DNA of 64,000 bases. Source: Sulfurimonas denitrificans DSM 1251. Lineage in GTDB: Bacteria; Campylobacterota; Campylobacteria; Campylobacterales; Sulfurimonadaceae. The translations under genes and the position numbers were made by a program. Location of the stretch: the NCBI RefSeq assembly GCF_000012965.1, contig NC_007575.1, positions 1,364,001 to 1,428,000 on the forward strand, written 5' to 3'. The stretch's first letter is position 1. Every line of letters starts with the position of its first letter. Below the pieces are notes generated by a model. That model was not told the origin of the DNA. It searched no databases and was given only the letters and a program-made list of their open reading frames with translations. Positions 5,148 to 24,447 of this stretch are shown here, piece by piece.

Positions 5148-5161
5148 TTGACCTTAGTCAA
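5148..5161 (+). promoter_or_regulatory. FNR/DNR-type operator upstream of nosZ
   Basis: TTGACCTTAGTCAA is a perfect palindrome of TTGAC half-sites around four bases, matching the FNR/DNR consensus TTGAYNNNNRTCAA. Its centre (5154.5) is about 42-45 bases before the start site implied by the -10 at 5187, the spacing of a class II activator. A Crp/Fnr gene 1.6 kb upstream and another at 18715-19344 are candidate binders. Confidence 0.75.
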
Positions 5162-7841: not shown

Positions 7842-7863
7842 TTCATTATAATAAAGAGTGTAC

Positions 7864-7897
7864 AAAGGGAGGGAATTAAAATTCCCTCCCTTTTTTT
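7864..7897 (+). terminator. Rho-independent terminator after nosZ
   Basis: Perfect 14-bp inverted repeat (AAAGGGAGGGAATT, two-base loop, complementary arm ending at 7893) followed by a T run to 7897. It separates nosZ from the nosB promoter. Confidence 0.93.
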
Positions 7898-7950
7898 ATC
7901 TAAAAAAATTAAAAAATTCATAATTCAATCTTATAAAAGAAATTTTGTTA

Positions 7951-7956
7951 TATAAT
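7951..7956 (+). promoter_or_regulatory. Candidate -10 of the nosB-nosL operon
   Basis: TATAAT inside TTTTGTTATATAATACTG, downstream of the nosZ terminator and 73 bases before the nosB start. The predicted start site (about 7963) falls at the foot of the hairpin at 7961-8014. Confidence 0.6.
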
Positions 7957-7960
7957 ACTG

Positions 7961-8014
7961 TTTAAAATAAAAACTGAGGATTTTTCTTAATCTTCAGATT
8001 TTATTTTATTTAAA
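7961..8014 (+). promoter_or_regulatory. Long hairpin in the nosB leader
   Basis: Imperfect inverted repeat: left arm about 7964-7982 and right arm about 7989-8007, with two mismatches (one of them a possible G-U pair) and a six-base loop TTTCTT. It ends before the ribosome-binding site (AAAAAGGAA), so it need not block translation. As it begins at or next to the predicted transcript start, it could stabilise the 5' end of the mRNA, act as an attenuator, or bind a protein. Confidence 0.6.
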
Positions 8015-8028
8015 AAGGAATTATTTCA

Positions 8029-8811
8029 ATGCATAAAAGTATTATCAAAGCAAGAGTATTTGCCTCATTGGCACTTATAATCTTGACACTATCTTTTACC
8101 TTTCCAATGATAGCTTTTCATGGGACGTTAAACAAAATTGATGCTGGAAAAAAAGATGAGATTTCATCTTTTAGCAAAACTGTATGGAATCTCTATAACC
8201 AAGGCAGATACAAGAGTATTTCAACTCCAAAAGAGGCACATAACAACTTAGATGAAATGATAACATCTGCTTCTGAGATAGGTGTTGCATCACTTCCTAT
8301 TTGGGCTGTATCTCTCGAGGCTCCAAACTATCCAAAAGAGGCTTTTCCACAAGGGATTCCTGTATATTTCCACTTTGATGGATATAGCGGAGAAGTACAT
8401 GAGATGAATACAATCAATCACTATGTAGGAATGGATCCTATGTGGATTGGTGGAACTATTGAGAGAGAGATAGGTATATATGCTCTTTTAGCACTATCAC
8501 TTGGAATGATATTTTTCATAGCTTATAATAAAAAAGTATTTAACTATATTTTATTAGTTCCAGCATCTCTTCCACTTCTTTTTATTGCTGATTATTCGTA
8601 TTGGTTATATTGGTTTGGACACAACTTACATGATTGGGGTGCATTTAAAATCAAGCCGTTTATGCCTACTGTTTTTGGAGATGGCAAGATTGCTCAATTT
8701 ACAACTCACTCATATCCTACTATTGGTTTTTATCTCATTGTAGCAATTGGGCTGCTTAGTCTTCTTGCATTTTTTGCAAAACAAAAAGCTCTCAAAGAGA
8801 TGAATCAATAA
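8029..8811 (+). CDS. nosB: NosB, membrane protein of clade II nos clusters
   Basis: 260 aa with about four membrane segments (near residues 10-32, 150-167, 171-190 and 232-253) and a periplasmic loop of about 115 residues after the first. Its length, topology and position directly after nosZ match NosB of Wolinella and other epsilonproteobacterial clusters. The biochemical role of NosB is not established. Conserved-looking patches include WIGGTIEREIGIYAL and a W/Y/H-rich loop (DYSYWLYWFGHNLHDWG) that could face a quinone or metal. It starts at ATG 8029 with a weak purine stretch; nosD begins two bases after its stop. Confidence 0.88.
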   Translation: MHKSIIKARVFASLALIILTLSFTFPMIAFHGTLNKIDAGKKDEISSFSKTVWNLYNQGRYKSISTPKEAHNNLDEMITSASEIGVASLPIWAVSLEAPNYPKEAFPQGIPVYFHFDGYSGEVHEMNTINHYVGMDPMWIGGTIEREIGIYALLALSLGMIFFIAYNKKVFNYILLVPASLPLLFIADYSYWLYWFGHNLHDWGAFKIKPFMPTVFGDGKIAQFTTHSYPTIGFYLIVAIGLLSLLAFFAKQKALKEMNQ

Positions 8812-8813
8812 AT

Positions 8814-10031
8814 ATGAACAAGTTAATCTTTGCCTTATTGGTTCTATTTTTACCACTTCTTGAAGCAAATATTTTGCAAGAAGCGATAGATAATGCACCA
8901 AGCGGCTCGATTTTAAGACTTCCTGCTGGTGTTTATAAAGGTAACATAATAATAAATAAACCCCTTACTATTATAGGTAAAGAGGCTGGTGTTATTATTG
9001 ATGGAGAAAACAAAGGCACTGTAATTAAAGTAAAAAGCTCTTTTGTTACGCTTAAAAATCTAAAGATAATTGGTAGCGGAGATAGACATGAAAATATTGA
9101 TGCAGCTATTGTTCTATCTGAGGTTAAACAGTGTGAAGTAAGTGATTGTATTATTGATGATTGTCTCTTTGGTATAGATTTACAAATGGTAAGTAACTCT
9201 ATAATTTCAAACAACACCATAACTTCAAAAGATTTTGAGCTTGGTTTAAAGGGTGATGGTTTAAGACTCTGGTACAGTAACGATAATATCATCAAGAAAA
9301 ACTCTCTTATACGCTCTCGCGATATGGTTATTTGGTATAGCCATGGAAACCTTATCGAGGAAAACTTTGGTGAATATTGTAGATATTCACTACACTTTAT
9401 GTATGCTGGTAAAAACCATGTAATAAACAACAGATACCAGTACAACTCAGTTGGTATATTTTTCATGTACTCCAAAGATACTGTTGCTACTGGCAATTTT
9501 ATAAAAAGCTCTTTAGGTGCAACTGGAATGGGTATAGGTTTAAAAGAGGTTACCAACTTTACAATTAAAAACAATACAATCTTATATTGTGCACAGGGAA
9601 TGTATATAGACAGATCGCCTTTTGAACCAGATACTAACAACTGGATTGAAGAAAACAAAATACTATATAACTCTGAAGCGCTCCATTTCCACTCAATGAG
9701 TGAAAGCAATATTATAAAAAATAATAAAATAATGGGAAATATAGAAGATGTAGTAAATGATGGAGGGTCTAGTAAAACTTATAACAATGAGATAGTTCAA
9801 AATTATTGGGATAATTATGAAGGATTTGACAGAAATGGAGACAACATAGGAGATACACCTCACAAGGTTTATCAATACGCAGATCAACTCTGGATTTATA
9901 ATCCAGGAGTAAAGTTTTTTTATGGTTCACCAGTTATATCTTTGCTCAATTTTTTAGCAAAGTTAGCACCATTTACAAAGCCGCTTTTTTTGTTTGAAGA
10001 CAAAGAGCCGATAGTTAAAATCAAAGGATAA
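8814..10031 (+). CDS. nosD: NosD, periplasmic copper-site maturation protein
   Basis: 405 aa with a Sec signal peptide (MNKLIFALLVLFLPLLEA). The body is a right-handed parallel beta-helix (CASH/pectate-lyase type): many short repeats rich in N and I such as NNTITS, NNTILY and ENKILYN. NosD works with the NosFY transporter to assemble the CuZ centre of NosZ; a sulphur-containing species is thought to be delivered. Length is normal. It starts two bases after nosB and ends three bases before nosG. Confidence 0.95.
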   Translation: MNKLIFALLVLFLPLLEANILQEAIDNAPSGSILRLPAGVYKGNIIINKPLTIIGKEAGVIIDGENKGTVIKVKSSFVTLKNLKIIGSGDRHENIDAAIVLSEVKQCEVSDCIIDDCLFGIDLQMVSNSIISNNTITSKDFELGLKGDGLRLWYSNDNIIKKNSLIRSRDMVIWYSHGNLIEENFGEYCRYSLHFMYAGKNHVINNRYQYNSVGIFFMYSKDTVATGNFIKSSLGATGMGIGLKEVTNFTIKNNTILYCAQGMYIDRSPFEPDTNNWIEENKILYNSEALHFHSMSESNIIKNNKIMGNIEDVVNDGGSSKTYNNEIVQNYWDNYEGFDRNGDNIGDTPHKVYQYADQLWIYNPGVKFFYGSPVISLLNFLAKLAPFTKPLFLFEDKEPIVKIKG

Positions 10032-10034
10032 GTT

Positions 10035-10775
10035 TTGGAAACAGTTAAAACAGATAAAAGAGAGTTTATTAAATACTCCACTTTAGGAGTTTTAGGACTT
10101 GTTTTAGGTGGAGGAATGGTTTTTTCTCCATACGTCTTAAAAGCAGAGCATAGATTAAGACCACCAGGGGCGGTTGATGAGAAAAAATTTTTAGCTCTAT
10201 GTATAAAATGTGGTCAGTGCCTTCAAGTTTGTCCTTACCACTCAATCAAACTCTCTGATTTTATAAGCGGGCATGGGGTTGGAACACCGTATATAGACGC
10301 TAACGAGAGAGGCTGTTATGCTTGTAGCGCTGTTCCTTGTGTACTTGCATGTCCAAGTGGAGCACTAGACCATCACTGTGAAAAACCTCAAGACATAAAG
10401 ATGGGAATAGCTGTTTTAGAGTTTCCTAACACATGTATTGCAATGACAAATACACCTATTCCAAAAGGGTATAATGATAAAATGCATAAATTTACTAATG
10501 GTGTAGTAAATACGAATGAACTTGAGAGTAAAATTTTAGAAAAATTTGATTCTTACGAAGGTAAACAGTGTACGCTATGTGCTGACATGTGCCCAATCCC
10601 AAATCCGCTTAGTGCAATTTCTATGGTACGTGATAGCGGTGGTGGAAATAGACCTGAAATTTATGATGGTTGTATAGGTTGTGGAGTATGTCAAGAGGTT
10701 TGTCCAACAAATGTACCCTCAATTGTCGTAAAACCAAGAGTCACTTATGAACAATTTTACACAAAAAAAAGTTAA
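10035..10775 (+). CDS. nosG: NosG, ferredoxin-type quinol dehydrogenase subunit
   Basis: 246 aa NapG/NosG family protein. Four Cys clusters for [4Fe-4S] centres are visible: CIKCGQCLQVCP (about residue 55), CYACSAVPCVLACP (about 95), CTLCADMCPIP (about 180) and CIGCGVCQEVCP (about 213). With NosH it should pass electrons from menaquinol to periplasmic cytochromes. The N-terminus has DKREFIKYSTLG followed by a hydrophobic stretch, a Tat-like signal with KR in place of RR. The start is TTG at 10035; AGGATAAG precedes it. Confidence 0.93.
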   Translation: METVKTDKREFIKYSTLGVLGLVLGGGMVFSPYVLKAEHRLRPPGAVDEKKFLALCIKCGQCLQVCPYHSIKLSDFISGHGVGTPYIDANERGCYACSAVPCVLACPSGALDHHCEKPQDIKMGIAVLEFPNTCIAMTNTPIPKGYNDKMHKFTNGVVNTNELESKILEKFDSYEGKQCTLCADMCPIPNPLSAISMVRDSGGGNRPEIYDGCIGCGVCQEVCPTNVPSIVVKPRVTYEQFYTKKS

Positions 10776-10785
10776 AGGATGAAAA

Positions 10786-11397
10786 ATGAAAATCAATAAA
10801 ACAGTCCTAATTTCTACAATTGTTTTACTTAGCATATTTAGCGGTTGTAGTGATAATACAAAAAAAGAGAGTGGACAAAGTGCTGCATCTAGTGAAGTGA
10901 CTTCTGCAAAAAGCATTGAAGTATTAAAAAACGAAAATGCAGGGGAGATAAAAGTTGCTCTTAAAGAGGTAGATGCAAATCAGAGTCACTCATATTACTA
11001 TGACTACAATATCAAAAGCGAATATGATATGAACTCTAAACCAGCCAACGATGATGCTTCTGTAAGAGAGAAAGCAAGAAGTGCTATTGATGCTAATTTA
11101 CATGTAAGAAGCCCTTATGAAGGTGTTGAAATATCAATGGTTGTTAAAAAACTTAGCAAAAATTTTATTGTTAAGTGTTCTGCATGTCATAATGATTATG
11201 CAAATGGCGTAATTGGACCATCACTTCTAAGTAAAGATGCTGATTTTATATTTGAAAAAATTTCAAAATTTAAAGATGGCTCTGCTAAAAATGTACTTAT
11301 GAAAGATTTGGTATTGCAAATGGATGATAAAGAGATAAGAGAACTCGCAGAAGAGATTTATGAATTTAACAAAAAAATTAAAGAGATGAGAAAATAG
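10786..11397 (+). CDS. nosC1: NosC1, monohaem cytochrome c lipoprotein
   Basis: 203 aa. Lipoprotein-type signal peptide ending IFSGC (Cys about residue 21), a low-complexity charged linker, then a single CSACH haem site (about residue 129) and downstream GPSLL and a VLMKDL stretch whose Met could be the sixth ligand. It would be anchored in the outer leaflet of the inner membrane and shuttle electrons between NosGH and NosC2/NosZ. Good ribosome-binding site AAAGGATG; nosC2 begins two bases after its stop. Confidence 0.9.
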   Translation: MKINKTVLISTIVLLSIFSGCSDNTKKESGQSAASSEVTSAKSIEVLKNENAGEIKVALKEVDANQSHSYYYDYNIKSEYDMNSKPANDDASVREKARSAIDANLHVRSPYEGVEISMVVKKLSKNFIVKCSACHNDYANGVIGPSLLSKDADFIFEKISKFKDGSAKNVLMKDLVLQMDDKEIRELAEEIYEFNKKIKEMRK

Positions 11398-11399
11398 AG

Positions 11400-11900
11400 A
11401 TGAAAAATATTATTGTAGCAACACTAACACTATTTATTCTTGGACTAATGGCTTATACTGCTTCAAAAGGAAGAGCATATCATGGTGGAGAACATGCAAA
11501 AGTTATAGAGAATATAGGTAGCAATACAAACACACAAGCAGGAGCTCAAAAGACAGCACAACCAGAAGAAAAAAGCGATAGAGATAAAGAGTCAGAGCAA
11601 CTTAAAGCGCTTAAAGATAAAGCTGGAAATATTGGTGAAATCAAAGTAAGTGCTGAATATAAGAGTAAATGCTCTGCTTGTCATGGAGCTAATGGTTCTG
11701 GAGAGCAAGATGGAAGAGCGCTAATGGGACCTAAACTTTATGGACAAAGTGCTGAGAAACTATATAAAGATTTGGTAGATTTTAAAGCAGGAAGAAAAGA
11801 GAACATTATTATGAAGGGACTTCTTATCAACACAACTGAAGAGGAACTTAAGAGTTATGCTGATGAGATAGGTGCGTTTTCTTCTCAAACTAAACAGTAA
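11400..11900 (+). CDS. nosC2: NosC2, monohaem cytochrome c
   Basis: 166 aa. The N-terminal hydrophobic segment (IIVATLTLFILGLMAYT) is probably an uncleaved anchor. A charged linker follows, then one CSACH site (about residue 92) within a compact class I domain containing MGPKLYGQS and IIMKGLL (Met ligand). It resembles nosC1 in its C-terminal half, so the two are likely tandem duplicates with different anchors. Electron carrier to NosZ by context. Confidence 0.9.
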   Translation: MKNIIVATLTLFILGLMAYTASKGRAYHGGEHAKVIENIGSNTNTQAGAQKTAQPEEKSDRDKESEQLKALKDKAGNIGEIKVSAEYKSKCSACHGANGSGEQDGRALMGPKLYGQSAEKLYKDLVDFKAGRKENIIMKGLLINTTEEELKSYADEIGAFSSQTKQ

Positions 11901-11914
11901 AGGGGCAAATTATT

Positions 11915-12820
11915 ATGGATAAATATAACTCTAGAGAGACCATAAAGCACTCCTCTTTTTGGTCAACTTTTTTTGATAGAACAAAAGATGGAAAGAAGAT
12001 ATTTAGCTATAGAATGAAAAGATGGATTGTAGTTATATCTGTACACCTTCTTTTTTTTCTATCTTTTCACATAGATATACAGACCTTAGAGGGAACATTA
12101 AATGGCTCAAGATTTTTAGGTTTTCACTTAATTGATATATTTACAACAATGCAGCTTTTTTTAGCTACTTATGAGTTGCCCGTAAATATGATTATCGGAA
12201 CTATTACTATAGTAATTGTTTATCTCTTAGTTGGTGGCAGAAGTTACTGCTCATGGGTTTGTCCTTATGGTCTGCTTAGTGAGGTTGGTGAGAAGTGGCA
12301 CAACACACTTGTTAATAAAAAAATCATTAAAGAGAGAAAGTTTGATCATAGAGTTAGACATATCTTTTGGGCTATGTTTTTGATTTTTTCTCTTGTTAGT
12401 GGTTATTTAGTTTTTGAAACTTTTAACGTTGTTGGAATTCTTAGCCGTATGATTGCTTATGGATGGAGTTTAGCACTTATATGGGTTGTAGTTGTTTTTG
12501 CCATAGAAGTTTTCTACTCTCGCAGAGCTTGGTGTACATATATCTGCCCAATAGGTACCACTTATGGTTATATAGGAAAAGTATCAGCACTTAGAGTTGA
12601 GTGGAATGATAATTGTGATCACTGTATGGTTTGCCATGATGTCTGTTTTGAGAATCAAGTTCTAGAGATTACTAAAGCAAAATATGATGCGCAAAGAGAA
12701 GAAAAAGGGATAACAAGAGAGTATATTACTGGCGCAGATTGTACATTATGTGGAAGATGTATAGATGTTTGTCACGCTGATGCGCTTAAATTTGATTTTA
12801 GATTAAAAAACTTGGTGTAG
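11915..12820 (+). CDS. nosH: NosH, membrane ferredoxin-type quinol oxidase subunit
   Basis: 301 aa NapH/NosH family. About four membrane helices (near residues 34-52, 92-110, 150-168, 180-200), with the cytoplasmic CSWVCPYG and CTYICPIG motifs after helices two and four, and two [4Fe-4S] motifs in the C-terminal domain (CDHCMVCHDVC and CTLCGRCIDVC). NapH-type proteins oxidise menaquinol and pass electrons to the G subunit. The second cluster of each motif ends in CH rather than CP. ATG at 11915; nosF follows after three bases. Confidence 0.95.
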   Translation: MDKYNSRETIKHSSFWSTFFDRTKDGKKIFSYRMKRWIVVISVHLLFFLSFHIDIQTLEGTLNGSRFLGFHLIDIFTTMQLFLATYELPVNMIIGTITIVIVYLLVGGRSYCSWVCPYGLLSEVGEKWHNTLVNKKIIKERKFDHRVRHIFWAMFLIFSLVSGYLVFETFNVVGILSRMIAYGWSLALIWVVVVFAIEVFYSRRAWCTYICPIGTTYGYIGKVSALRVEWNDNCDHCMVCHDVCFENQVLEITKAKYDAQREEKGITREYITGADCTLCGRCIDVCHADALKFDFRLKNLV

Positions 12821-12823
12821 CAG

Positions 12824-13462
12824 ATGATAGAAATAAAAAACCTAACAAAAAAATTTGGCTCTCATGTATCACTTGATGATGTGAGTTGTAACTTTAATAA
12901 AAACGACTCTGTTGCGCTTATGGGCGCAAATGGAGCAGGTAAGACAACACTAATCCGCTCTATTTTAGGATACTATCATCCAGATGGCGGAGAAGTTTTC
13001 ATAAACGGATTAAATCCAATAAAAGAGCGAACAAAAGTGCTCCACAATATTAGCTTTGTTCCACAACTCCCACCTCCTATCAAACTAAGCATTGAAGAGC
13101 TTATGCACTATATAAGCGTGAGCGCTGATGTTGATAAAGAGCTTATCAAGCACTATGCCAATGAGATGAAACTCGATATCAGTGCAAATATGAATAAATC
13201 ATTTTTTAAGCTAAGCGGAGGAATGAAGCAAAAATTGCTAATCGCTATAAGTTTAGCAAAAAAGAGCAATATCATCATTTATGATGAGCCAACAGCCAAC
13301 CTTGATCCAAAAGCACGAGATGATTTTTACAGGCTTCTGAACAAAAATGAAGAGGAGAAAACTCTTCTATTTGTTACGCATAGATTAGAAGAGGTAAGAG
13401 ATTTGGTCAATAGACAAATCTATATGGATATGGGAAAAGTTGTTTCAGATGAAATTTTTTAG
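12824..13462 (+). CDS. nosF: NosF, ABC transporter ATPase
   Basis: 212 aa with Walker A GANGAGKTT (about residues 35-43), Q-loop FVPQ, signature LSGGMKQKL (about 128-136), Walker B IIIYDEP and the switch histidine in FVTHR. Pairs with NosY; the complex drives CuZ maturation together with NosD. It is shorter than clade I NosF (about 300 aa), lacking a C-terminal extension. Its 3' end overlaps the start of nosL by 14 bases. Confidence 0.95.
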   Translation: MIEIKNLTKKFGSHVSLDDVSCNFNKNDSVALMGANGAGKTTLIRSILGYYHPDGGEVFINGLNPIKERTKVLHNISFVPQLPPPIKLSIEELMHYISVSADVDKELIKHYANEMKLDISANMNKSFFKLSGGMKQKLLIAISLAKKSNIIIYDEPTANLDPKARDDFYRLLNKNEEEKTLLFVTHRLEEVRDLVNRQIYMDMGKVVSDEIF

Positions 13463-13898
13463 CTTTATCTCTCTTTTTACTCTTCTTTTGTTTATATCTG
13501 CATGTAGTTCATCAGATGCAATAACCTCAGAAAATAAAAAAAGTTGTCCAAAGTGTAATATGACTCTTCCAACATCTAACATTCATACCGCAAAACTTGA
13601 AGATGACTCAAAGAGTTATTATTTTGATGATTTTGGATGTCTTGTTTTATGGGCAAAAGAGAAAAATATATCTTTAGTTGACAAAAAAATTGAGGTCTTC
13701 TCAAATGATACAAAGAGATATATAGATGCTAAAGCGGCTTATTTTATTATCAACGACAAAACACCTATGAGTTATGGATTTGGTGCGTATGAAAATGAGG
13801 TACTAAATTCTATAAAAGTTGAAGAAGTAGAGCTAAAGATGCTCAGGGGTGAGCATATGGCAAACCCAAAAATTAGAAAACAGATATTAGGGCAATAA
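13449..13898 (+). CDS. nosL: NosL, copper-chaperone lipoprotein
   Basis: 149 aa from the ATG at 13449, chosen because GGGAAAAG lies ten bases upstream; the TTG at 13440 would have no spacing. Lipoprotein signal ending FISAC. The metal motif CPKCNM follows at once (NosL binds Cu(I) through Cys/Met/His) and FDDFGCLVLW, AKAAYFI and TPMSYGFGAYE are the usual NosL blocks. It delivers Cu(I) for NosZ assembly. It sits between nosF and nosY, so the ABC genes are split by their chaperone. Confidence 0.95.
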   Translation: MKFFSFISLFTLLLFISACSSSDAITSENKKSCPKCNMTLPTSNIHTAKLEDDSKSYYFDDFGCLVLWAKEKNISLVDKKIEVFSNDTKRYIDAKAAYFIINDKTPMSYGFGAYENEVLNSIKVEEVELKMLRGEHMANPKIRKQILGQ

Positions 13899-13909
13899 GG
13901 AGTGTTTTT

Positions 13910-14737
13910 TTGAAAAATTTATATTTAATTGCATACTTGGATTTAAAAGAGTCTATAAGAGCTAAATGGTTTTTAGTTTACTCTCTTGTATTTGGCGGAC
14001 TTATAGCTCTATTTTTTATAGCAGGTGTTACAGAGTCTCAAGTTATGGGCTTTAGCGGACTTAGCAGACTTCTGCTTATGTATATTCAAATAACGATAGT
14101 TATACTTCCTATCTTTATTTTAATAACTACAGTTCGCTCAATTTCTGGTGATAGAGATAACCACATTTTAGAGTACATGTTATCTTTTCCAATCTCTCTA
14201 AAACAGTACTACTGGGGTAAAATTATTGGTAGATTTATAACTGTTTATATCCCAGTACTTTTTGCTATGGTAATTGCAATAATTTATGGTGCGATTAAGG
14301 GTGCTGCTATTCCATGGAGCATCTTCTTCTTATATACAGGACTTCTTTTTTCACTATCAAGTACATTTTTAGGGATAGCATTTTTCATATCCTCTTTTGT
14401 AAAATCTTCAGAAGTAGCTCTTGGTATTGCATTTTTTATCTGGATATTTTTACTTGCTTTTATCGATATAGCTCTTATATCTCTTATGATGCAGCAGAGG
14501 TTCAATGAAGGATTTATCATTTTTATTGCCATGATAAACCCAATGGAACTCTTTAGAGTAGCTGCTATTTCACTCTTTGACCCTGAGCTTACAGTTATGG
14601 GTCCTGTTGCATATTATATTCTTGATTTGATGAGCCAAAAGGGCTTTGTATTGCTTTCAATCGGTTATCCACTCCTCCTAGGAATACTCTTTGCTTGGTT
14701 TGGATTTATGATATTTAAGAAAAAAGATTTAGTTTAA
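13910..14737 (+). CDS. nosY: NosY, ABC transporter permease
   Basis: 275 aa with six predicted membrane helices and the family motif SGDRDNHILEYMLSFPIS after the second helix, the coupling region that contacts NosF. Ends in the short basic tail FKKKDLV. Partner of NosF in CuZ maturation. It starts with TTG at 13910; AAGGAG ends eight bases upstream. Confidence 0.94.
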   Translation: MKNLYLIAYLDLKESIRAKWFLVYSLVFGGLIALFFIAGVTESQVMGFSGLSRLLLMYIQITIVILPIFILITTVRSISGDRDNHILEYMLSFPISLKQYYWGKIIGRFITVYIPVLFAMVIAIIYGAIKGAAIPWSIFFLYTGLLFSLSSTFLGIAFFISSFVKSSEVALGIAFFIWIFLLAFIDIALISLMMQQRFNEGFIIFIAMINPMELFRVAAISLFDPELTVMGPVAYYILDLMSQKGFVLLSIGYPLLLGILFAWFGFMIFKKKDLV

Positions 14738-14748
14738 GGAGAGAATAG

Positions 14749-15219
14749 ATGAAAAAAATTCTATTAGCGTGTGTACTTTTAAGCTCTTTGTTGTTTTCGT
14801 ATTCCATGGATTATGATAAAGAGAGTGAGTGTTTAGTAAGAAAGATAAAAGTTCATAAAGGTCCACAGTGGGTATCTAAAATAGAGCTCCTTGATGGAAA
14901 AAAGTTATTTTTTAGCAGTCCAAAATCTATGTTCGAATTTTATCATCAACCAGGTCGATGGTTCGATATAGGCGTTAAGAGTGAAGATGATTTTAAAGAA
15001 ATCTTAGTGATGGACTACAACTCTTTGCAGCCAATCAATGCAAAGGGTGCTTTTTATGTTTATGGAAGCTCGGTAACATCTCCAGCAGGTGATGATTTAG
15101 TTCCGTTTAAAAGTTATGAGGATGCTCAAGCTTTTGCCAAAAAGTATAATGGCAAAAGAGTTTTTGCTTTTAGCGATGTAAAAGAGTCTTTAATTAGACT
15201 CCTAAATAATAAACTCTAA
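14749..15219 (+). CDS. Second NosL-family protein, lacking the CxxCxM motif
   Basis: 156 aa with a Sec signal peptide (MKKILLACVLLSSLLFSYS). Sequence blocks of the NosL fold are clear: KKLFFSSPKSMFEFYHQP, AKGAFYVYGSS and VPFKSYEDAQAFAKKYNG. The N-terminal metal motif is reduced to a lone Cys in ESECLVRKI, with Met, His and further residues nearby. It may be a partner of NosL, act on another copper site, or hold metal by another set. It is the last gene of the nos cluster, eleven bases after nosY. Confidence 0.88.
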   Translation: MKKILLACVLLSSLLFSYSMDYDKESECLVRKIKVHKGPQWVSKIELLDGKKLFFSSPKSMFEFYHQPGRWFDIGVKSEDDFKEILVMDYNSLQPINAKGAFYVYGSSVTSPAGDDLVPFKSYEDAQAFAKKYNGKRVFAFSDVKESLIRLLNNKL

Positions 15220-17505: not shown

Positions 17506-18630
17506 CTAAAAATCGAATTTCTCAGACTTTAAGATTCTAAATTTAGTAAACTCTTCATTTGCTTCAAGACCCAGTTTTTGTGCGCCCTCTTTAGTTATTC
17601 TTTGAACACCAAGAGTGAGTGTTAATTTATCACCTTTTTTAAGAATATTTGAGTAAGGAACCTCTTTTTTTGCATATATAAGAGTATCTTTTAAAAGAGC
17701 ATTTGCACTCCATGGCATAACCTCTTTGGAATCTTTTGCTAAAACTCTCTCAAATACAAAAGGCTCTAGAGTGATAATTTTTCCATCTCTTAAAATTGTA
17801 GCTTTAAGAGTTCCAGCTCGCAAAGCTTGACCAAATAGCGCATGATTTGATTTGTTTATGATTAGAACATCAAAACCTTGAGCTTTTTGTGTAACTTTAA
17901 ACTCTATATACTCTCCCATCTTATCGTTCATATGATATATACCAGCGATTCCATGAAAAGCATGAGTTTTTGTCTCATTTATAGTTACTTTAGAACCAAC
18001 TACTTGAGGCATATGACATGTAACACAGCTGTTTTCATCTTTTTCGCTAATCACTGCATCCAACATAGTTATGTCAAAACTATGCTCATTGTTTACATGT
18101 GAGTGACAACCCATACATACATTTCCGCTATAGTAGTTTTCATTGTCATAGTTTATTTTATGATAAGGAGAGCTTTTTGGCTCTTTAACAAGTCCAAACC
18201 ATGATTTTTCAGTTTTATACTCAGCACTGCCTTTTTTACCCTTTTCTGCTGTATAAAACTCTCTATCTTTGCCAGACAAAACGTTAGTATTGGACTCTTC
18301 GCCCTCTTCTATGCTTTTTATATTATGACAGTAAACACATGAGATAGGTTCCTCAACTTGAACCTCATTTTTAGCAACAACTCCATCTCTTAACGCTTTT
18401 TCATCACTAGGAGAGTGACATTTTGCACATGTATAACCTTTTTCATCTTTTGGATGTGCATCCCACATCGCTGCGTGTATAGGATTATTATAGATTGAGG
18501 TATTTTTATGAGAAGATTTATAATACTCTTCAAATATAATTGGGTGACATTTTTGGCATACCCTGCTCTCATTTGCGAATAGTGTGCTTATAAAAATTGA
18601 GATAAGAAAAGGTAAAATAAGATGGCGCAT
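17506..18630 (-). CDS. Pentahaem periplasmic c-type cytochrome
   Basis: 374 aa from the ATG at 18630, chosen because a Sec signal (MRHLILPFLISIFISTLFA) begins there and GGAG lies eight bases upstream; the longer frame adds a non-signal stretch. Five CxxCH sites: CQKCH (residues 25-29), CAKCH, CVYCH, CMGCH and CVTCH, all in the N-terminal 215 residues, in the style of cytochrome c554/NapC-related multihaem domains. The C-terminal 160 residues are haem-free and beta-rich, with ADSK/NHALFG-type loops. Probable electron transfer protein or multihaem oxidoreductase; substrate unknown. It is the last gene of the minus-strand cluster, about 85 bases after the Crp/Fnr gene. Confidence 0.88.
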   Translation of the reverse strand: MRHLILPFLISIFISTLFANESRVCQKCHPIIFEEYYKSSHKNTSIYNNPIHAAMWDAHPKDEKGYTCAKCHSPSDEKALRDGVVAKNEVQVEEPISCVYCHNIKSIEEGEESNTNVLSGKDREFYTAEKGKKGSAEYKTEKSWFGLVKEPKSSPYHKINYDNENYYSGNVCMGCHSHVNNEHSFDITMLDAVISEKDENSCVTCHMPQVVGSKVTINETKTHAFHGIAGIYHMNDKMGEYIEFKVTQKAQGFDVLIINKSNHALFGQALRAGTLKATILRDGKIITLEPFVFERVLAKDSKEVMPWSANALLKDTLIYAKKEVPYSNILKKGDKLTLTLGVQRITKEGAQKLGLEANEEFTKFRILKSEKFDF

Positions 18631-18714
18631 GGCTAACTCCGTTATGAATTTTATGTATTCTAACAAAGCTAGCAATAAGATTTATTGATATGTGGCAGTT
18701 AAAGCAGTTTTCTC

Positions 18715-19344
18715 TTAAAAATAGTTAGAAAGAGTCTCTTTATCAATATATTTTTTCTTAATATTAATAATTCCATTGTCTTTGAAAAATTTCAATATCC
18801 TAGATAATGTCTCTGGAGAAACTCCTAATATCTCGGCAATTTCGATATTTTTTGTCTCAAAAAAATCGTCACTGTGGCTATAAATATACTTTGCTACACG
18901 CTCTTTTGAGTCAAGGACTAGATTTGTAGAGATAATATTTTCAAGATTTTTAATTTTTTTTATAAGAGATGTCTGAATATTAAACGCTAAACTTGGATTT
19001 AAAAAGATAACCTCTTTGAGTTTTTCAAAATCTACCTTTAAAAACTCTACATCGCTATAAGCTTTAGCTGTTGCAGGATATGGAATATTTTCAAAATTTG
19101 CCACCTCTCCGATGAGTTCATTCTCATGAAAATATTTAAGAACTATCTCTTTATGGCTTGATGATGTCTTATAGAGTTTGATTACACCTTTTACTAAGAG
19201 GTAGAGATATTTTGGCTCATCTCCCTCATAAAATACAATATTATCTTTACTTACTTTATGGTCAGTAGTAAAACTCTCTATTTTTTTTATAGTATCTTCA
19301 TCTACATTTTGAAAAAGGAGTGTATTTTTTAGATGTATTCTCAT
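18715..19344 (-). CDS. Crp/Fnr-family regulator in the NosL/ABC cluster
   Basis: 209 aa with a cyclic-nucleotide-type barrel (about residues 12-115; EGDEPKYLYLLVKGVIKLYK) and a C-terminal HTH (EIAEILGVSPETLSRILKFFKDNGI). No N-terminal Cys cluster, so no Fnr-type iron-sulphur centre. The recognition helix PETLSR is the same as in the regulator at 3525, so both may read FNR-type TTGAC half-sites. Its ATG overlaps the end of the preceding NosL gene by four bases, tying it to that cluster. Confidence 0.9.
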   Translation of the reverse strand: MRIHLKNTLLFQNVDEDTIKKIESFTTDHKVSKDNIVFYEGDEPKYLYLLVKGVIKLYKTSSSHKEIVLKYFHENELIGEVANFENIPYPATAKAYSDVEFLKVDFEKLKEVIFLNPSLAFNIQTSLIKKIKNLENIISTNLVLDSKERVAKYIYSHSDDFFETKNIEIAEILGVSPETLSRILKFFKDNGIINIKKKYIDKETLSNYF

Positions 19345-19772
19345 TTTATTTTTTTAATAACCTCATCATAAGTTAAAATCTCTTCACCCTCTTTAATAGA
19401 CTCTTTTTTAGCATAAGCACTAAAACCAAAAGCCATTGGCGTTACGTTGCTAGATGTATAAAATGCGCTTCTTGCATCAATCCATTTACCGTCTGTAACA
19501 TCAGTTATCCAGATTTTTGCACTATCTTTAAACTCTATCTTCTCTTCATCAAACCATAAAACCATACATCCAATATCATCAAATTTATAAACTTTTCCTT
19601 TAGTAGGATGTTGGAGTTGAACACTGTTTTTTCTATCGCTTAACACCATAACACATCTATCGCACATATCTCTATCCCAGTGTATCTTTGATGGTCCATC
19701 TTTAGGAGTATCTTGACATCCTAAGAAAAGAGATATAGCCACTAAAGGAAGTAACTTCTTAATTTTCAACAT
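19341..19772 (-). CDS. NosL-family copper lipoprotein (second cluster)
   Basis: 143 aa; lipoprotein signal ending SLFLGC, then the metal motif MCDRCVM (about residues 36-42) and the NosL blocks YKFDDIGCMVLWF, DARSAFYTSS and TPMAFGFSAYA. It is a close paralogue of the product of 13449-13898 in motif order but has CDRCVM in place of CPKCNM. It follows the membrane protein at 19782 by nine bases and overlaps the Crp/Fnr gene. Likely Cu(I) chaperone; the recipient is unknown. Confidence 0.92.
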   Translation of the reverse strand: MLKIKKLLPLVAISLFLGCQDTPKDGPSKIHWDRDMCDRCVMVLSDRKNSVQLQHPTKGKVYKFDDIGCMVLWFDEEKIEFKDSAKIWITDVTDGKWIDARSAFYTSSNVTPMAFGFSAYAKKESIKEGEEILTYDEVIKKIK

Positions 19773-19781
19773 TGCAAATCC

Positions 19782-20729
19782 TTATAAAAAAACACCGTTT
19801 TTAATGTAATAGTTTAATATATATAGTGTCAGCAATATAACATAAAGAGAGTTAAATAGAAGTGATATTTTATAGCTACTATCACTATCTTTTACAAAAC
19901 TAACAACTAAACCGTAAAAGGTACCCATAAATAGAAAAAAGTATAGAAAATAGCCAACATAGTAATAGTCGCTCTGCAGAAAACAAAACGGACAGTGATG
20001 AGATGGAAGCTCATATATATAAGTCCCAAAAAAGAGTATAAGTGAAACAAGTGAGAGAGGAATAAAGAGTGCATTTAGAGCACTAAAGAGATACCTTTTT
20101 TTCAAAAAGAATAGTAAAACTATCAAAAAATAGTTTGTGTAAAAAACCATAAGCAGAAGTGAATTATCAATTTTAAACAGCGTTGAGAGTGCTGATGTTG
20201 AAGAGCTTGAATATATGCTTCCACAACAACTCACCATCTTGTCAATCTCTATATCTTTAAACATCGAAAAATCAAGAGCAAGTTCTAACATCAAAAGAAA
20301 AAAGAGCCCTAAAAAAAGCCCGAACTTATATCTTGTGTATGGCTGATTTTTATCACTTATATCTGTAGTGTGGATTCTAAGCCAATATGCAAAAAGATAT
20401 AGGTTTATAATCTTTAGCACAATTAGGTACATTCCGCTTTGTGTTGCATCAACAACTCCAGCCGCACACATGGCACCTGTTATAACATTTGAGATTTTAT
20501 CAAGAGCAAAAATAAAAAAGATAAAAAGTGGAACTTTTATAGTAAAGATATATTTGATGATAGTTGCAGCCAGATAGCTCTGTTTCTCCAGCTCATACTG
20601 TGTAATTGATGTTGAGTTTGCATCCCACTTTAAAAAGATTCTAAGGCTTAAGACAAACGCCACAACTGCAAAAATAGCAAAAATAATATTTAAGATAAGA
20701 ATGGTTAAAACTTCTGGTGTAAGAAGCAT
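19782..20729 (-). CDS. Polytopic membrane protein with CC and HHCPFC motifs
   Basis: 315 aa with about eight hydrophobic helices. Polar features inside the membrane region are MCAAGVV (about residue 92), KMVSCCGSIYSS (about 170) and SHHCPFCFLQSDYYYVG (about 240). A vicinal Cys pair plus a CxxC within a membrane protein resembles thiol-disulphide (VKOR/DsbB-like) or copper-handling proteins, but order and spacing do not match VKOR closely. It starts on the last base of the ATPase gene and lies beside a NosL gene, so copper delivery or disulphide chemistry is a fair guess. No exact family recognised. Confidence 0.8.
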   Translation of the reverse strand: MLLTPEVLTILILNIIFAIFAVVAFVLSLRIFLKWDANSTSITQYELEKQSYLAATIIKYIFTIKVPLFIFFIFALDKISNVITGAMCAAGVVDATQSGMYLIVLKIINLYLFAYWLRIHTTDISDKNQPYTRYKFGLFLGLFFLLMLELALDFSMFKDIEIDKMVSCCGSIYSSSSTSALSTLFKIDNSLLLMVFYTNYFLIVLLFFLKKRYLFSALNALFIPLSLVSLILFFGTYIYELPSHHCPFCFLQSDYYYVGYFLYFFLFMGTFYGLVVSFVKDSDSSYKISLLFNSLYVILLTLYILNYYIKNGVFL

Positions 20730-21397
20730 TAGATAATCTTCCCTTGATATATCTCTATCTCTACATCAACTATATCTAAACCAAAAAAGAGTGGGTCATG
20801 TGTCGCTATAATTATTGTTTTACCCTCGTTTTTCAACTCTTTGACTATCTCAATAAAAGAGAGTGAGAGCTTCTTATCAAGATTTGCGGTTGGCTCATCT
20901 GCTAGGATAATTTTTGGATTGTTTATATTTGCTCTAGCAATCGCCACACGTTGTTGTTCTCCACCTGATAGATTTTTTACAAGCTGAGAAGCTTTATGCT
21001 CAATGTTGAACATACGAAGAACTCTTTGTAGTTTTGCTTTTATCTCACTTTCACTTAAGTTCATAGGAACTAGAGGCAATATTATGTTCTCCTCTACACT
21101 AAGCGTTGGAATAAGATTATATTTTTGAAAAACAAAACCTATGAAATGGCGTCTAAAATCTGAGGCAAAGTTATCTGGAAGCTTTGAGACTCTATCTCCA
21201 CCAACTAAGACTTCCCCGCTTGTAGGCTTGCTAAGAGCTGCTATTAGTGAGAGAATCGTACTTTTTCCGCTCCCACTTGAGCCTCTAAGAACTACAACTT
21301 GTCCCTCTTTTATCTCAAGGTTTATGTTATCAAGTGCCACAACGCTCTCATTCTCGTTTACTTCATACTTTTTTACTACATTTATCAAACTTATCAT
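20729..21397 (-). CDS. ABC transporter ATPase, LolD/MacB type
   Basis: 222 aa with Walker A GSSGSGKST (about residues 38-46), Q-loop FVFQKYNLIPTLSVEENI, signature LSGGEQQRV, Walker B ILADEPTANLDK and switch His in IATHD. This is the LolD/MacB/FtsE class that powers mechanotransmission permeases rather than classic importers. It overlaps the permease stop and the next gene's start by one base each. Confidence 0.95.
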   Translation of the reverse strand: MISLINVVKKYEVNENESVVALDNINLEIKEGQVVVLRGSSGSGKSTILSLIAALSKPTSGEVLVGGDRVSKLPDNFASDFRRHFIGFVFQKYNLIPTLSVEENIILPLVPMNLSESEIKAKLQRVLRMFNIEHKASQLVKNLSGGEQQRVAIARANINNPKIILADEPTANLDKKLSLSFIEIVKELKNEGKTIIIATHDPLFFGLDIVDVEIEIYQGKII

Positions 21398-22572
21398 TAG
21401 CGTATAACCTCATCTGCTTCAAGTGTCGCACTTCTCCACGATGGGATAATGATAGCGGCTATATATATTGGTACACTTAGAAAAAAGATAAGTGCCAAGG
21501 TCTGCATGTCAAAAACAAAAGGTAGATTAAAAGATGTCTTTAGTTGTGAATAACCTAAAAATATATTTTGTAAAAGAGGCGCTTTAAATATATATACAAA
21601 AGCAAAAGAGAGTGTTATACCAACAAGATAGGAGAAAATTGAAACTATAAAGCCCTCATAAAACTTCTCTTTGAGCACGTCATCCACTCTCCATCCAACA
21701 GCCTTTAGTATCCCTATCTCTCTTTTTTGCTCACTGCTGAGTCCACTTACTCTGTCATATATAATGATAAAAAATGTAAAAAGCGAGACACTAAAGAGTG
21801 CCAAAAATATTCCACTTTTATAATCAAAAATATTTTGATAACTTATTTTTAAATCATCTTTAGTTATCACTCTTGTATCTGGGTATAGCAACTTTATCTT
21901 AGATGCTACAGTTGCTACTTCGTTGAAATTTGCAACACGCACAACTATATCTGTAGCTTTTTGCGCAGATATATCAAAAATCTCTCGCACATTTTCTTTG
22001 CTCATAACGATAACATCATTTGATTCAAGCTCACTCTGCGCTTTAAATGTAGCAGCTATATCTACTCTTTTTAGCGTACCATCTGGTTTTATAAAGTTAA
22101 AATAATCTTTGTAGTAGTTTTTATCCATAACTATTTTTACGCCCTCGCCTACTATCATGGAAGGTTTTGTAAAATCAAGGTTTGCGGCGACATCTACAAA
22201 CGATTTTTTGTACTGTTCTTCATACTCATCAATACCTACAAGGCTAAAATTTACCCCAGCATTTTCAAAATAGTAGTATCCCCAAACTCTAGCAACTGCT
22301 CCACTGACTCCATGAATATCTAAAATTTCATCAATAGTGCTAACATCAATATCATAATGACGACCACCCTTAATCTTTTGCACTGTTATATCAGGAAGTG
22401 CTTCTAGCGTCTGTTTTAACTCATATTTTATGGAATTGGTTATAAAAAAGAGTGAAGATAGCAAAAACACCAACATACTAAAGACTATAGAGATAAAAAT
22501 AGTTTTATACTTTTGGCGAAGCAGGGAGTTTATCGCATACTCTACTATGTAAAAATTTATCTTATTTTGCAT
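21397..22572 (-). CDS. ABC transporter permease, MacB/FtsX type
   Basis: 391 aa from the ATG at 22572, six bases after AAGG; an ATG at 22575 is equally in frame, and the frame further upstream lies inside the preceding gene. One N-terminal helix (about residues 25-48), a periplasmic MacB-PCD-like domain (about 50-250), and three C-terminal helices (near 260, 310 and 360) of the FtsX fold, with EIGILKAVGWRVDDVLKEKFYEG as the coupling segment. Such permeases move envelope lipoproteins or peptides or pass conformational signals to periplasmic partners. The neighbours are three NosL-type domains, which suggests a role in copper-protein assembly. Confidence 0.92.
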   Translation of the reverse strand: MQNKINFYIVEYAINSLLRQKYKTIFISIVFSMLVFLLSSLFFITNSIKYELKQTLEALPDITVQKIKGGRHYDIDVSTIDEILDIHGVSGAVARVWGYYYFENAGVNFSLVGIDEYEEQYKKSFVDVAANLDFTKPSMIVGEGVKIVMDKNYYKDYFNFIKPDGTLKRVDIAATFKAQSELESNDVIVMSKENVREIFDISAQKATDIVVRVANFNEVATVASKIKLLYPDTRVITKDDLKISYQNIFDYKSGIFLALFSVSLFTFFIIIYDRVSGLSSEQKREIGILKAVGWRVDDVLKEKFYEGFIVSIFSYLVGITLSFAFVYIFKAPLLQNIFLGYSQLKTSFNLPFVFDMQTLALIFFLSVPIYIAAIIIPSWRSATLEADEVIR

Positions 22573-22849
22573 CATTTGCCTTATATACGTATGTTGAAGC
22601 AAAGTACTCTCTAAGTGAGGCGTCATCTCTATATATTGAGGAAAAATCGCTCAAACTTCTATGTCTGATATAAGATGCCTCTGTTGAGATTGCCAAATCT
22701 GGAAGAAGAAGAGTAGTTACAAACTCTCTTTTTATAGCTAAAGAGTTCCCATCTAAACTTTTGGTTTTGTAAAGATACACAACTTCAAAAGATAGAAGAG
22801 AGAGTAGAAAAAAAAGAGTATTGAGTAAAAATATGCTTTTTTTATTCAT
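22562..22849 (-). CDS. Small single-TM protein of the NosL/ABC cluster
   Basis: 95 aa from the ATG at 22849 (an upstream TTG at 22852 is less likely). One N-terminal membrane helix (IFLLNTLFFLLSLLSFEVVYLY), then about 65 residues outside with no cysteines. The start overlaps the tandem-NosL stop by eight bases and the stop overlaps the permease start, so translation is coupled through all three. It may be an accessory subunit of the ABC transporter. No family recognised. Confidence 0.8.
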   Translation of the reverse strand: MNKKSIFLLNTLFFLLSLLSFEVVYLYKTKSLDGNSLAIKREFVTTLLLPDLAISTEASYIRHRSLSDFSSIYRDDASLREYFASTYVYKANDAK

Positions 22850-23936
22850 CAAGTTTATATATCTCAGAAGATGTTATATCTTTAAACTCTATTACTTTAA
22901 AACCTTTATGGTCCATATTAAAAGCTTTTGCCTCTTTTTGTGAATTAAAAGGGATAAGCTCTTTGCCCATAGGACCATAAACATCGCTTCCAAGGACATA
23001 AAAGGCAGTTGATGCGTCTATGGCTTTTTGTGAGTAATAATCTGTAACTAGAATTTTTTTAATGCCATCTTTATTCTGGAAATAGTACTTCATCATATCT
23101 TTTACACCATCAAATGAGTGGTGTTTACCTTCATAAAAAATCTGTGCCGCCCATTTTGGATATTTGTAAACGAACATTCCACATATTGGACATTTCTCAT
23201 CTTTTGTTACTTGAATCGTATCTACTCTTTTATCATTTGCTTCAAATCTTTTTACTTCCCAAATATATAAAGACAGTGGCTGAAGCTCCTCCTCACTAAG
23301 AGTTCCACAAAGTTTTTTATCTGCCAAATCTGCTTTTAACTCATTTAGCTGTACATAATTGTTGGCATCTATGTTTTGTTTACAATTTTTATCATATATT
23401 TTTTTGCCCATCGGATAGACTTGTTTCTCTTTTTTATTTTGAACCATCTCTATATCTGAATCAAGCGACTCAGATGCCATCTTTAGAGCCTTCTCAAAAC
23501 TAACTACCTCTCCGCCATGTTCTATGTTAAAGTCATCCGCTGCCTCTTTTGATGAAAAAGCAACTTTACTAACTTTACTCATAGTTCCCTTTACATCTGA
23601 GCCTACTACATAATGAGCATCTTTTGCAAAAATCAACTTTTGAGATAGAGCGTCAACAACTTTTACATCATTCGTATCTATCTTATGTTCTTGCATGTCA
23701 ACTGCTAAACATCTCATAGAGCAGTACTGTTTATCTGTATGATTTACTTTTGAAGTGTGTGAAGTTTTATAAAAACTCTCCAGCTTCATACCACATACTG
23801 GACACCACTCTTTTTGTGAGCCCTTTTGGATAAGTTCTGGTTTTATCGTTGCAGATTTTGTAAAACTATCTGCACTTAAATTTTGAGTTGTTAAAAGAAG
23901 TAGTATAAATACTCCAAGGAAGAGTTTTTTTAACAT
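22842..23936 (-). CDS. Tandem NosL-domain protein with a cytochrome c-like linker lacking haem motif
   Basis: 364 aa, Sec-exported (MLKKLFLGVFILLLLTTQNLSA). Two NosL-type halves: the first with CPVCGM (about residues 45-50), a following YCSMRC, and AHYVVGSDVKGTMSK; the second with CPICGM (about 248-253), HHSFDGVKDMMKYY and AFYVLGSDVYGPMGKELIPF. Between them (about 175-235) is MGKKIYDKNCKQNID...KKLCGTLSEEELQPLSLYIWEVKR, which reads like a small cytochrome c with no CxxCH. NosL proteins are usually single-domain; two sites on one chain could pass Cu(I) stepwise or bind two ions. Coupled to the downstream ABC genes. Confidence 0.9.
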   Translation of the reverse strand: MLKKLFLGVFILLLLTTQNLSADSFTKSATIKPELIQKGSQKEWCPVCGMKLESFYKTSHTSKVNHTDKQYCSMRCLAVDMQEHKIDTNDVKVVDALSQKLIFAKDAHYVVGSDVKGTMSKVSKVAFSSKEAADDFNIEHGGEVVSFEKALKMASESLDSDIEMVQNKKEKQVYPMGKKIYDKNCKQNIDANNYVQLNELKADLADKKLCGTLSEEELQPLSLYIWEVKRFEANDKRVDTIQVTKDEKCPICGMFVYKYPKWAAQIFYEGKHHSFDGVKDMMKYYFQNKDGIKKILVTDYYSQKAIDASTAFYVLGSDVYGPMGKELIPFNSQKEAKAFNMDHKGFKVIEFKDITSSEIYKLDE

Positions 23937-23940
23937 GTAG

Positions 23941-23969
23941 AGCCTCTTTATAAATGATTTATGGAGGCT
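23941..23969 (-). promoter_or_regulatory. Hairpin hiding the tandem-NosL ribosome-binding site
   Basis: On the minus strand AGCCTC (23969-23964) pairs with GAGGCT (23946-23941), with a further ATAAAT/ATTTAT stem inside. GAGG of the right arm is the Shine-Dalgarno of the tandem-NosL gene (six bases before its ATG at 23936). The left arm overlaps the TAG stop (23970-23968) of the upstream DUF4149 gene, so ribosomes ending there would open the hairpin. Confidence 0.6.
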
Positions 23970-24447
23970 ATTTTATCCTAAGAAGCATTAATCTTCTTAT
24001 AAATAATATAAGTATAGCTATTGCTAAAATCTTAAAATCAAGCTCACTAACTAAATGAAGATTTATAAAAGTATCGCTTAGTGTCGCTTCTTCCCCTAGT
24101 TTTTGCATTGAGAGAATTTTTGGCGCATAAACACCGCTAAACATAAGTGCAGAAAAAACCACTGTTACAGAACTTCCAAAAATTACTGAATCTCTTTGTC
24201 CATTTTTGTACATAACTATCTCATATATAGTCACAAAAAAAGCTAAGATATATATCCAGTAGCTAAAGCGGCTAAATATCTCAGCCATTATTTTTCCCTC
24301 GTTATATCTGCCTAGCTCAATGCTAAAGAGAATAGACTCAGTGTTAAAAATAACTGGAGCAACAAATGCACCCAAGACAATAACAGCTCCAAAAGTTGCA
24401 GCCAAAAGCAGAAGATAACTAAAATCTATGTAAATGTTTCTTTTCAA
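23968..24447 (-). CDS. DUF4149-family membrane protein
   Basis: 159 aa with four membrane helices (near residues 9-30, 60-80, 88-108 and 135-155). The FGAVIVLGAFVAPVIFNT start and LMFSGVYAPKIL are typical of DUF4149/TMEM205-like proteins. Function unknown. It starts with TTG at 24447, three bases after prmC, and its stop lies in the hairpin before the tandem-NosL gene. Confidence 0.85.
   Translation of the reverse strand: MKRNIYIDFSYLLLLAATFGAVIVLGAFVAPVIFNTESILFSIELGRYNEGKIMAEIFSRFSYWIYILAFFVTIYEIVMYKNGQRDSVIFGSSVTVVFSALMFSGVYAPKILSMQKLGEEATLSDTFINLHLVSELDFKILAIAILILFIRRLMLLRIK

Follow-up and report, generated by a model that had tools for sequence, protein, structure and literature searches.

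A conserved NosL-linked module with a LolC-type ABC pair in Campylobacterota, a candidate route of copper delivery in N2O and sulfite respiration

Introduction

Nitrous oxide (N2O) reductase, NosZ, is the main known biological sink of N2O, and copper loading limits this enzyme. In clade II organisms, the route of copper to its CuA and CuZ centers is poorly known. Another copper enzyme, MccA, is a heme c-copper sulfite reductase whose copper is held by two cysteines. Here, we describe a gene module of Sulfurimonas denitrificans DSM 1251, whose genome is a single contig of 2,201,561 bp (NC_007575.1). The window, meaning the whole stretch of DNA that was analyzed, covers 64,000 nucleotides (positions 1,364,001 to 1,428,000 of the contig), and coordinates refer to it unless given as genome positions. 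The module encodes NosL proteins, a small transmembrane (TM) protein, an ATP-binding cassette (ABC) permease and ATPase, and a cysteine-bearing membrane protein, here called MP, and lies near a clade II nos cluster. Its genes themselves are not new, since the mcc cluster of Wolinella succinogenes was reportedly published in 2011; the novelty lies in the conserved module, the new family of MP, and what would be a new form of NosL-dependent copper delivery.

The closest described machinery is NosL with NosDFY. NosL is a Cu(I) chaperone, and CXXCXM is the clade II form of its Cu(I) motif (PMC6530538). According to Mueller et al. 2022, as summarized in PMC13068155, NosL hands copper to NosD in complex with NosFY, and this transfer supplies the mechanism for the analogy drawn below. 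The sulfite-reductase operon of Shewanella oneidensis is written sirAIGCDJKLM (PMC6976685), and a published table gives the genes that follow sirCD as nosL (SO0485) and nosY (SO0488), both copper components (PMC5955497). Published mcc and nos clusters contain genes like those of the module, with no role given for them within the accessible literature.

Results and discussion

A conserved core of five genes

Homologues of MP were sought in 150 Campylobacteria genomes and are present in 47. Gene order was read from 40 neighborhoods and from 80 named GTDB loci, the best 80 of 390 relatives, nearly all titled Campylobacterota or one of its genera. The recurrent order is NosL (often tandem), small TM protein, permease, ATPase, and MP, often followed by NosL again, with an orthologue of the tandem NosL protein opening the core in most loci. 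This order in dozens of genomes is not due to chance. No plasmid copy of MP or MccA was found.

The S. denitrificans locus comprises eight closely packed, partly overlapping genes at 17506-23936, all on the minus strand, as the sequence-only reading had placed them. The first encodes the tandem NosL protein (22842..23936, 364 aa), which is exported and carries two NosL domains with CPVCGM and CPICGM (PF05573 in two stretches, best E 1.7e-55). It overlaps at 22842-22849 the gene of a small TM-anchored periplasmic protein (22562..22849) with the motif LPDLAxSTEAxxxRHRSLSD; this protein has no Pfam match and an NCBIfam match at chance level only, and 62 homologous open reading frames (ORFs) were found alongside the module. 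The FtsX/LolC-E-type permease (21397..22575; PF02687, 5e-13) has 4 TM helices and a periplasmic domain of ~180 aa. Its stop meets at 21397 the start of the LolD/FtsE/MacB-type ATPase (20729..21397; PF00005, ABC_tran, 2.7e-37), which in turn meets MP (19782..20729) at 20729. A NosL lipoprotein of 143 aa with a CDRCVM motif follows (19341..19772; PF05573 above cut-off, E 1.2e-5), so that CXXCXM occurs in both tandem NosL domains and in the lipoprotein.

The last two genes encode a Crp/Fnr-family regulator (18715..19344; cNMP_binding and HTH_Crp_2), overlapping the lipoprotein gene at 19341-19344, and an exported pentaheme cytochrome c (17506..18630; five CXXCH; Cytochrome_C554/C7-like, PF14522 and PF13435), whose start is probably the ATG at 18630, preceded by GGAG, rather than 18675. 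These two genes are 84 bases apart, whereas the upstream junctions overlap or nearly touch. Both had been counted as parts of the module from the sequence alone, but among the best 80 of 390 loci the regulator occurs in only 17 and the cytochrome in only 10, all close relatives of S. denitrificans. On grounds of synteny they were rejected as core genes: the regulator is a clade-specific accessory, and the cytochrome is a clade-specific neighbor that is probably not core.

Variation around the core includes an additional ORF (327-345 aa) that some Sulfurimonas-like genomes have between permease and ATPase (L155, L171). In one locus (L063), the module is immediately preceded by genes for a response regulator, a histidine kinase, ExbB, ExbD, and a TonB-like protein that has a CNCGC stretch, and size-matched ORFs stand upstream of the tandem NosL gene in L060 and L062, which suggests coupled outer-membrane metal uptake. 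NosL also occurs within larger proteins: a 918-aa membrane polyferredoxin (L005:541-3297, genome position ~292595) carries the domain mid-protein, as NosL fused to an electron-transfer membrane protein, and in G134 the NosL match falls in a 912-aa frame.

A type VII ABC pair and a new membrane protein family

The sequence-only reading called the permease MacB-type. It is an FtsX permease, but over its full length it is nearer LolC/LolE than MacB: the alignment with LolC spans the whole protein, and its AlphaFold2 model (predicted local distance difference test score, pLDDT, 85) matches LolE at 2e-15 and MacB at 4e-13 in Foldseek, with LolC, HrtB, and FtsX structures also matched. The modeled fold is hence of LolC/E type. 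The ABC pair has the traits of type VII ABC systems, namely, a permease with 4 TM helices, a periplasmic domain between TM1 and TM2, and an FtsX C-terminal domain, together with a MacB/LolD-type ATPase. NCBIfam matches stay below cut-off for the permease (lolCE, 38 versus 362 bits) and for the ATPase (LolD, 194 versus 308 bits; FtsE likewise). A MacAB-TolC efflux pump was rejected, as the cluster has no MacA-like adaptor gene and the ATPase is separate, not fused. The housekeeping Lol system was rejected too, since a separate LolC/E homologue, itself under cut-off, exists in S. denitrificans at genome position 1105345. In all six genomes tested, with or without the module, such a separate homologue scores 226-267 bits, whereas the module permease reaches ~38 bits at most.

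MP has no match in Pfam, NCBIfam, or PADLOC, nor in PDB by sequence, and its model (pLDDT 88, eight long helices) has no PDB fold match at E<=0.001, which also led us to reject a thiol oxidoreductase of VKOR/DsbB type. Residues C88, C168, C169, C246, C249, and H244 are invariant in alignments of 40 and 29 sequences, as is M87. Loops 2, 4, and 6, which share one face of the protein, contain all five cysteines and H244, and this face is predicted to be periplasmic because the loops of the other face are richer in lysine and arginine. MP represents a new membrane protein family with a probable copper or thiol function.

Association with nosZ and nos loci

As the sequence-only reading had proposed, gene order and co-occurrence were searched across genomes, and the module is found in 33 of 41 genomes with nosZ against 14 of 109 without (Fisher 7e-15, kinship ignored). 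At the genus level, a member with the module exists in 10/10 nosZ genera and in 6/29 others (1e-5). At least two nos genes accompany it in 20 of the 47 named loci of at least 14 kb (among the best 80 of 390). Its place varies: between nosL and nosY (L185, L193), downstream of nosL2 (G061, G074), upstream of nosY (L191, L163), or convergent with the nos cluster in Sulfurimonas. On the MP tree, adjacency to nos genes changes 11 times, at least 6 of which are forced by well-supported branches. In the published cavolei nos cluster, the order hypothetical, ABC permease, ABC ATPase, hypothetical, hypothetical is given with no function or family; this gene set occupies the same place as the module in L185 and L193 and, by position and composition as described, is probably the module.

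In S. denitrificans, a complete clade II nos cluster at 5244..15219 (nosZ, nosB, nosD, nosG, nosC1, nosC2, nosH, nosF, nosL, nosY, nosL2), named by position and resemblance to the epsilonproteobacterial cluster, runs on the plus strand, opposite to the module. The genome has a second nosZ at genome position 1852820 and a second nosD at genome position 1080544.

What distinguishes the 14 module genomes without nosZ? None has NosD (TIGR04247) above cut-off, with one subthreshold match in G125, and NosDFY is therefore absent there. All 14 have NosL, as does every module genome tested, and NosL is absent from the eight module-less genomes without nosZ that were tested, four with and four without a distant MccA-like protein. 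One genome, G145, has nosZ and NosL without the module.

Membership of the mcc operon in relatives

The MccA query, from a Campylobacter-like genome, has seven CXXCH and one CX15CH, the octaheme pattern of MccA; close MccA denotes at least 76% identity to it, and distant MccA-like proteins share 47-51%. Close MccA is encoded in 22 of the 150 genomes, all 22 of which have the module, and four of the 14 nosZ-less module genomes are among them. In the MccA neighborhoods read, the core makes up the 3' portion of the mcc operon. Campylobacter- and Sulfurospirillum-like genomes have one copy immediately behind the genes of an FKBP-like isomerase, an FeS protein, an NrfD-like protein, a CcsBA-type cytochrome c synthase, and a Sel1 protein, with MccA upstream of these accessory genes. 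G056 has neither nosZ nor close MccA, yet mcc accessory genes stand beside its second module copy. The only one of 121 Helicobacteraceae genomes with the module is the Wolinella-like G223, which has two copies, the first in the order mccA-B-C-D-ccsA1-...-NosL-permease-ATPase-MP-NosL. The second (L199:4786-10920) lies after a CcoG/FixG-like ferredoxin and an SLAC1 channel, with no adjacent NosL and a very diverged MP. The mcc-linked MP copies form one clade (support 100/100).

MccA was not found in the S. denitrificans genome. A role for another N-oxide, raised in the sequence-only reading, found no support; the other copper enzyme that emerged is sulfite reductase. Shewanella and Campylobacterota, two lineages that share this kind of sulfite reductase, seem to have NosL and an ABC system at the same operon place, of nos type in the former and of module type in the latter. 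This parallel, whose Shewanella side is drawn from a published gene table, is the strongest argument for a copper role.

A candidate copper-delivery machine and the competing readings

By analogy, from neighborhood, motif, and fold, we infer that the module is an ATP-driven copper-delivery system, analogous but not homologous to NosDFY, which serves MccA in relatives and probably NosZ here. We consider this moderately probable. Copper delivery parallel to NosDFY, as first suggested from the sequence alone, is the best-supported reading, since the same core occurs both in the mcc operon in relatives and within or next to nos clusters. That relatives have it in their sulfite-reductase operon points to copper loading of respiratory enzymes located beyond the inner membrane. 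The exported NosL proteins would bind Cu(I) in the periplasm via CXXCXM. The type VII ABC pair would move no copper across the membrane; rather, ATP would drive its periplasmic domain, and by such mechanotransmission the motion of the permease domain could drive hand-over of Cu(I) from NosL. MP may be the partner that handles metal or thiols, either by transferring Cu(I) to the target or by holding target thiols in the reduced state. Where the core belongs to the mcc operon, this target would be MccA; in S. denitrificans, it would most probably be NosZ, beside and in addition to NosDFY. If true, N2O and sulfite respiration have in common a second, NosD-free, NosL-linked ABC system, which would be a new maturation route.

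Several observations weigh against this explanation. Eight nosZ genomes have no module, meaning that NosZ does not strictly require it; a single Campylobacter-like genus contributes much of the association; and with NosDFY encoded in the window, a task for NosZ would be partly redundant. Nineteen genomes have a distant MccA-like octaheme protein and no module, and the four of them tested have no NosL either. The nine distant proteins read keep both extra cysteines, so these residues were discarded as a predictor of the module. The spacer of the eighth site is longer than CX15CH in the three inspected. In L101, L104, and similar loci of module-less genomes, the distant protein is paired with a six-CXXCH paralogue, several pairs also having a thioredoxin-like lipoprotein and CcsBA; such pairs are possibly a different enzyme. 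Finally, both nosZ and close MccA are missing from 10 of the 47 module genomes. The sequence-only reading had held that a module widespread in genomes without N-oxide or copper enzymes would speak against it, and in part this is what we see; however, Campylobacterota generally have a copper-containing cbb3 oxidase, so these ten orphan genomes are not free of copper enzymes.

Could the module serve a narrower or a wider set of copper sites? In a narrower version, it would be a dedicated metallation and thiol-redox machine for copper sites with cysteine ligands, namely, CuA in NosZ and the Cys-bound copper in MccA. It would complement NosDFY (for CuZ) and replace Sco/PCuAC, and the LolC-type ABC pair would drive MP, a new class of membrane relay for thiols or copper. 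Neither Sco nor PCuAC rises above cut-off in most genomes tested that have both module and nosZ, S. denitrificans included. The eight nosZ genomes that lack the module divide evenly: four have both proteins and four have neither, and these last four also have no strong homologue of the permease. Because module-less nosZ genomes can thus lack Sco/PCuAC too, the data are compatible with this version without favoring it, and we regard it as unlikely. More doubtful is a general periplasmic copper supply, e.g., to CuB of cbb3 oxidase, in genomes without Sco/PCuAC, the nosZ and mcc linkage being secondary. It would account for the ten orphan genomes, in which cbb3 oxidase or some other copper protein might be the target. 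Most Sulfurimonas and the four orphan genomes tested (G143, G010, G003, and G063), like S. denitrificans, show neither Sco nor PCuAC above cut-off, and the ferredoxin preceding the second copy of G223 resembles CcoG, a cupric reductase for cbb3 assembly (PMC7558416). Such a supply, however, leaves membership of the mcc operon unexplained, and it fits poorly with G001, which has no Sco, PCuAC, or module, with the 120 of 121 Helicobacteraceae genomes without the module, and with several module genomes that hold both Sco and PCuAC.

Readings without copper delivery are likewise improbable. The ABC pair and MP might handle a reductant, sulfur, or heme, or expel copper, around multiheme or copper enzymes, which we judge about as doubtful as a general copper supply. 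The permease fold is common to the heme exporter HrtB, the five predicted periplasmic cysteines of MP suit a thiol relay, and mcc operons also hold a cytochrome c synthase, but distant-MccA loci include CcsBA where the module is missing. The distribution of NosL described above speaks against such a transporter, an objection weakened by NosL genes that lie away from the module in some genomes (e.g., G003 and G008). Least probable is a Lol-like role in which the ABC pair would extract or sort lipoproteins of NosL type and leave copper untouched. The permease does align with LolC/LolE along its length, and the last gene of the operon encodes a lipoprotein; however, the far better LolC/E homologue in all six genomes tested argues against it, and it gives no role to the invariant cysteines of MP or to the mcc linkage.

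Surroundings of the module in the window

Upstream of the tandem NosL gene lies a gene for a DUF4149 membrane protein (23968..24447, minus strand; PF13664, 7e-15), and an inverted repeat, AGCCTC...GAGGCT, lies between the two (23937-23967). The DUF4149 gene and the HemK/PRMT gene upstream of it are syntenic in most Sulfurimonas-like genomes, and whether the former belongs to the unit is uncertain. In the nos cluster, the last NosL-fold gene (14749-15219) has no CXM copper motif, though its Pfam match is clear. A perfect Fnr-like palindrome, TTGACCTTAGTCAA, stands at 5148-5161, ~80 bases before the nosZ start; across the window, Fnr-type palindromes show no excess over chance.

Comparison with known systems

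With NosL-NosDFY, the module has in common CXXCXM-bearing NosL proteins as Cu(I) chaperones, an ABC pair, and linkage to nosZ. It differs in having no NosD, in a permease of FtsX/LolC type and an ATPase of LolD/FtsE type, and in the addition of MP and the small TM protein. A NosF/NosY-type ABC pair is not part of it, nosF and nosY of the window being separate genes, and it co-occurs with NosDFY in nosZ genomes and elsewhere stands without NosD. The nos-type genes reported for the Shewanella sir operon have the same operon position as the module. Within the LolCDE/MacB/HrtBA/FtsEX (type VII ABC) superfamily, the permease has the same fold, but the module has no MacA-like adaptor or fused ATPase and is linked to NosL and MP. 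Compared with the mcc cluster of W. succinogenes, whose 3' part is the module core in G223 and in Campylobacter- and Sulfurospirillum-like genomes, the S. denitrificans copy lies near nos genes and on another branch of the MP tree.

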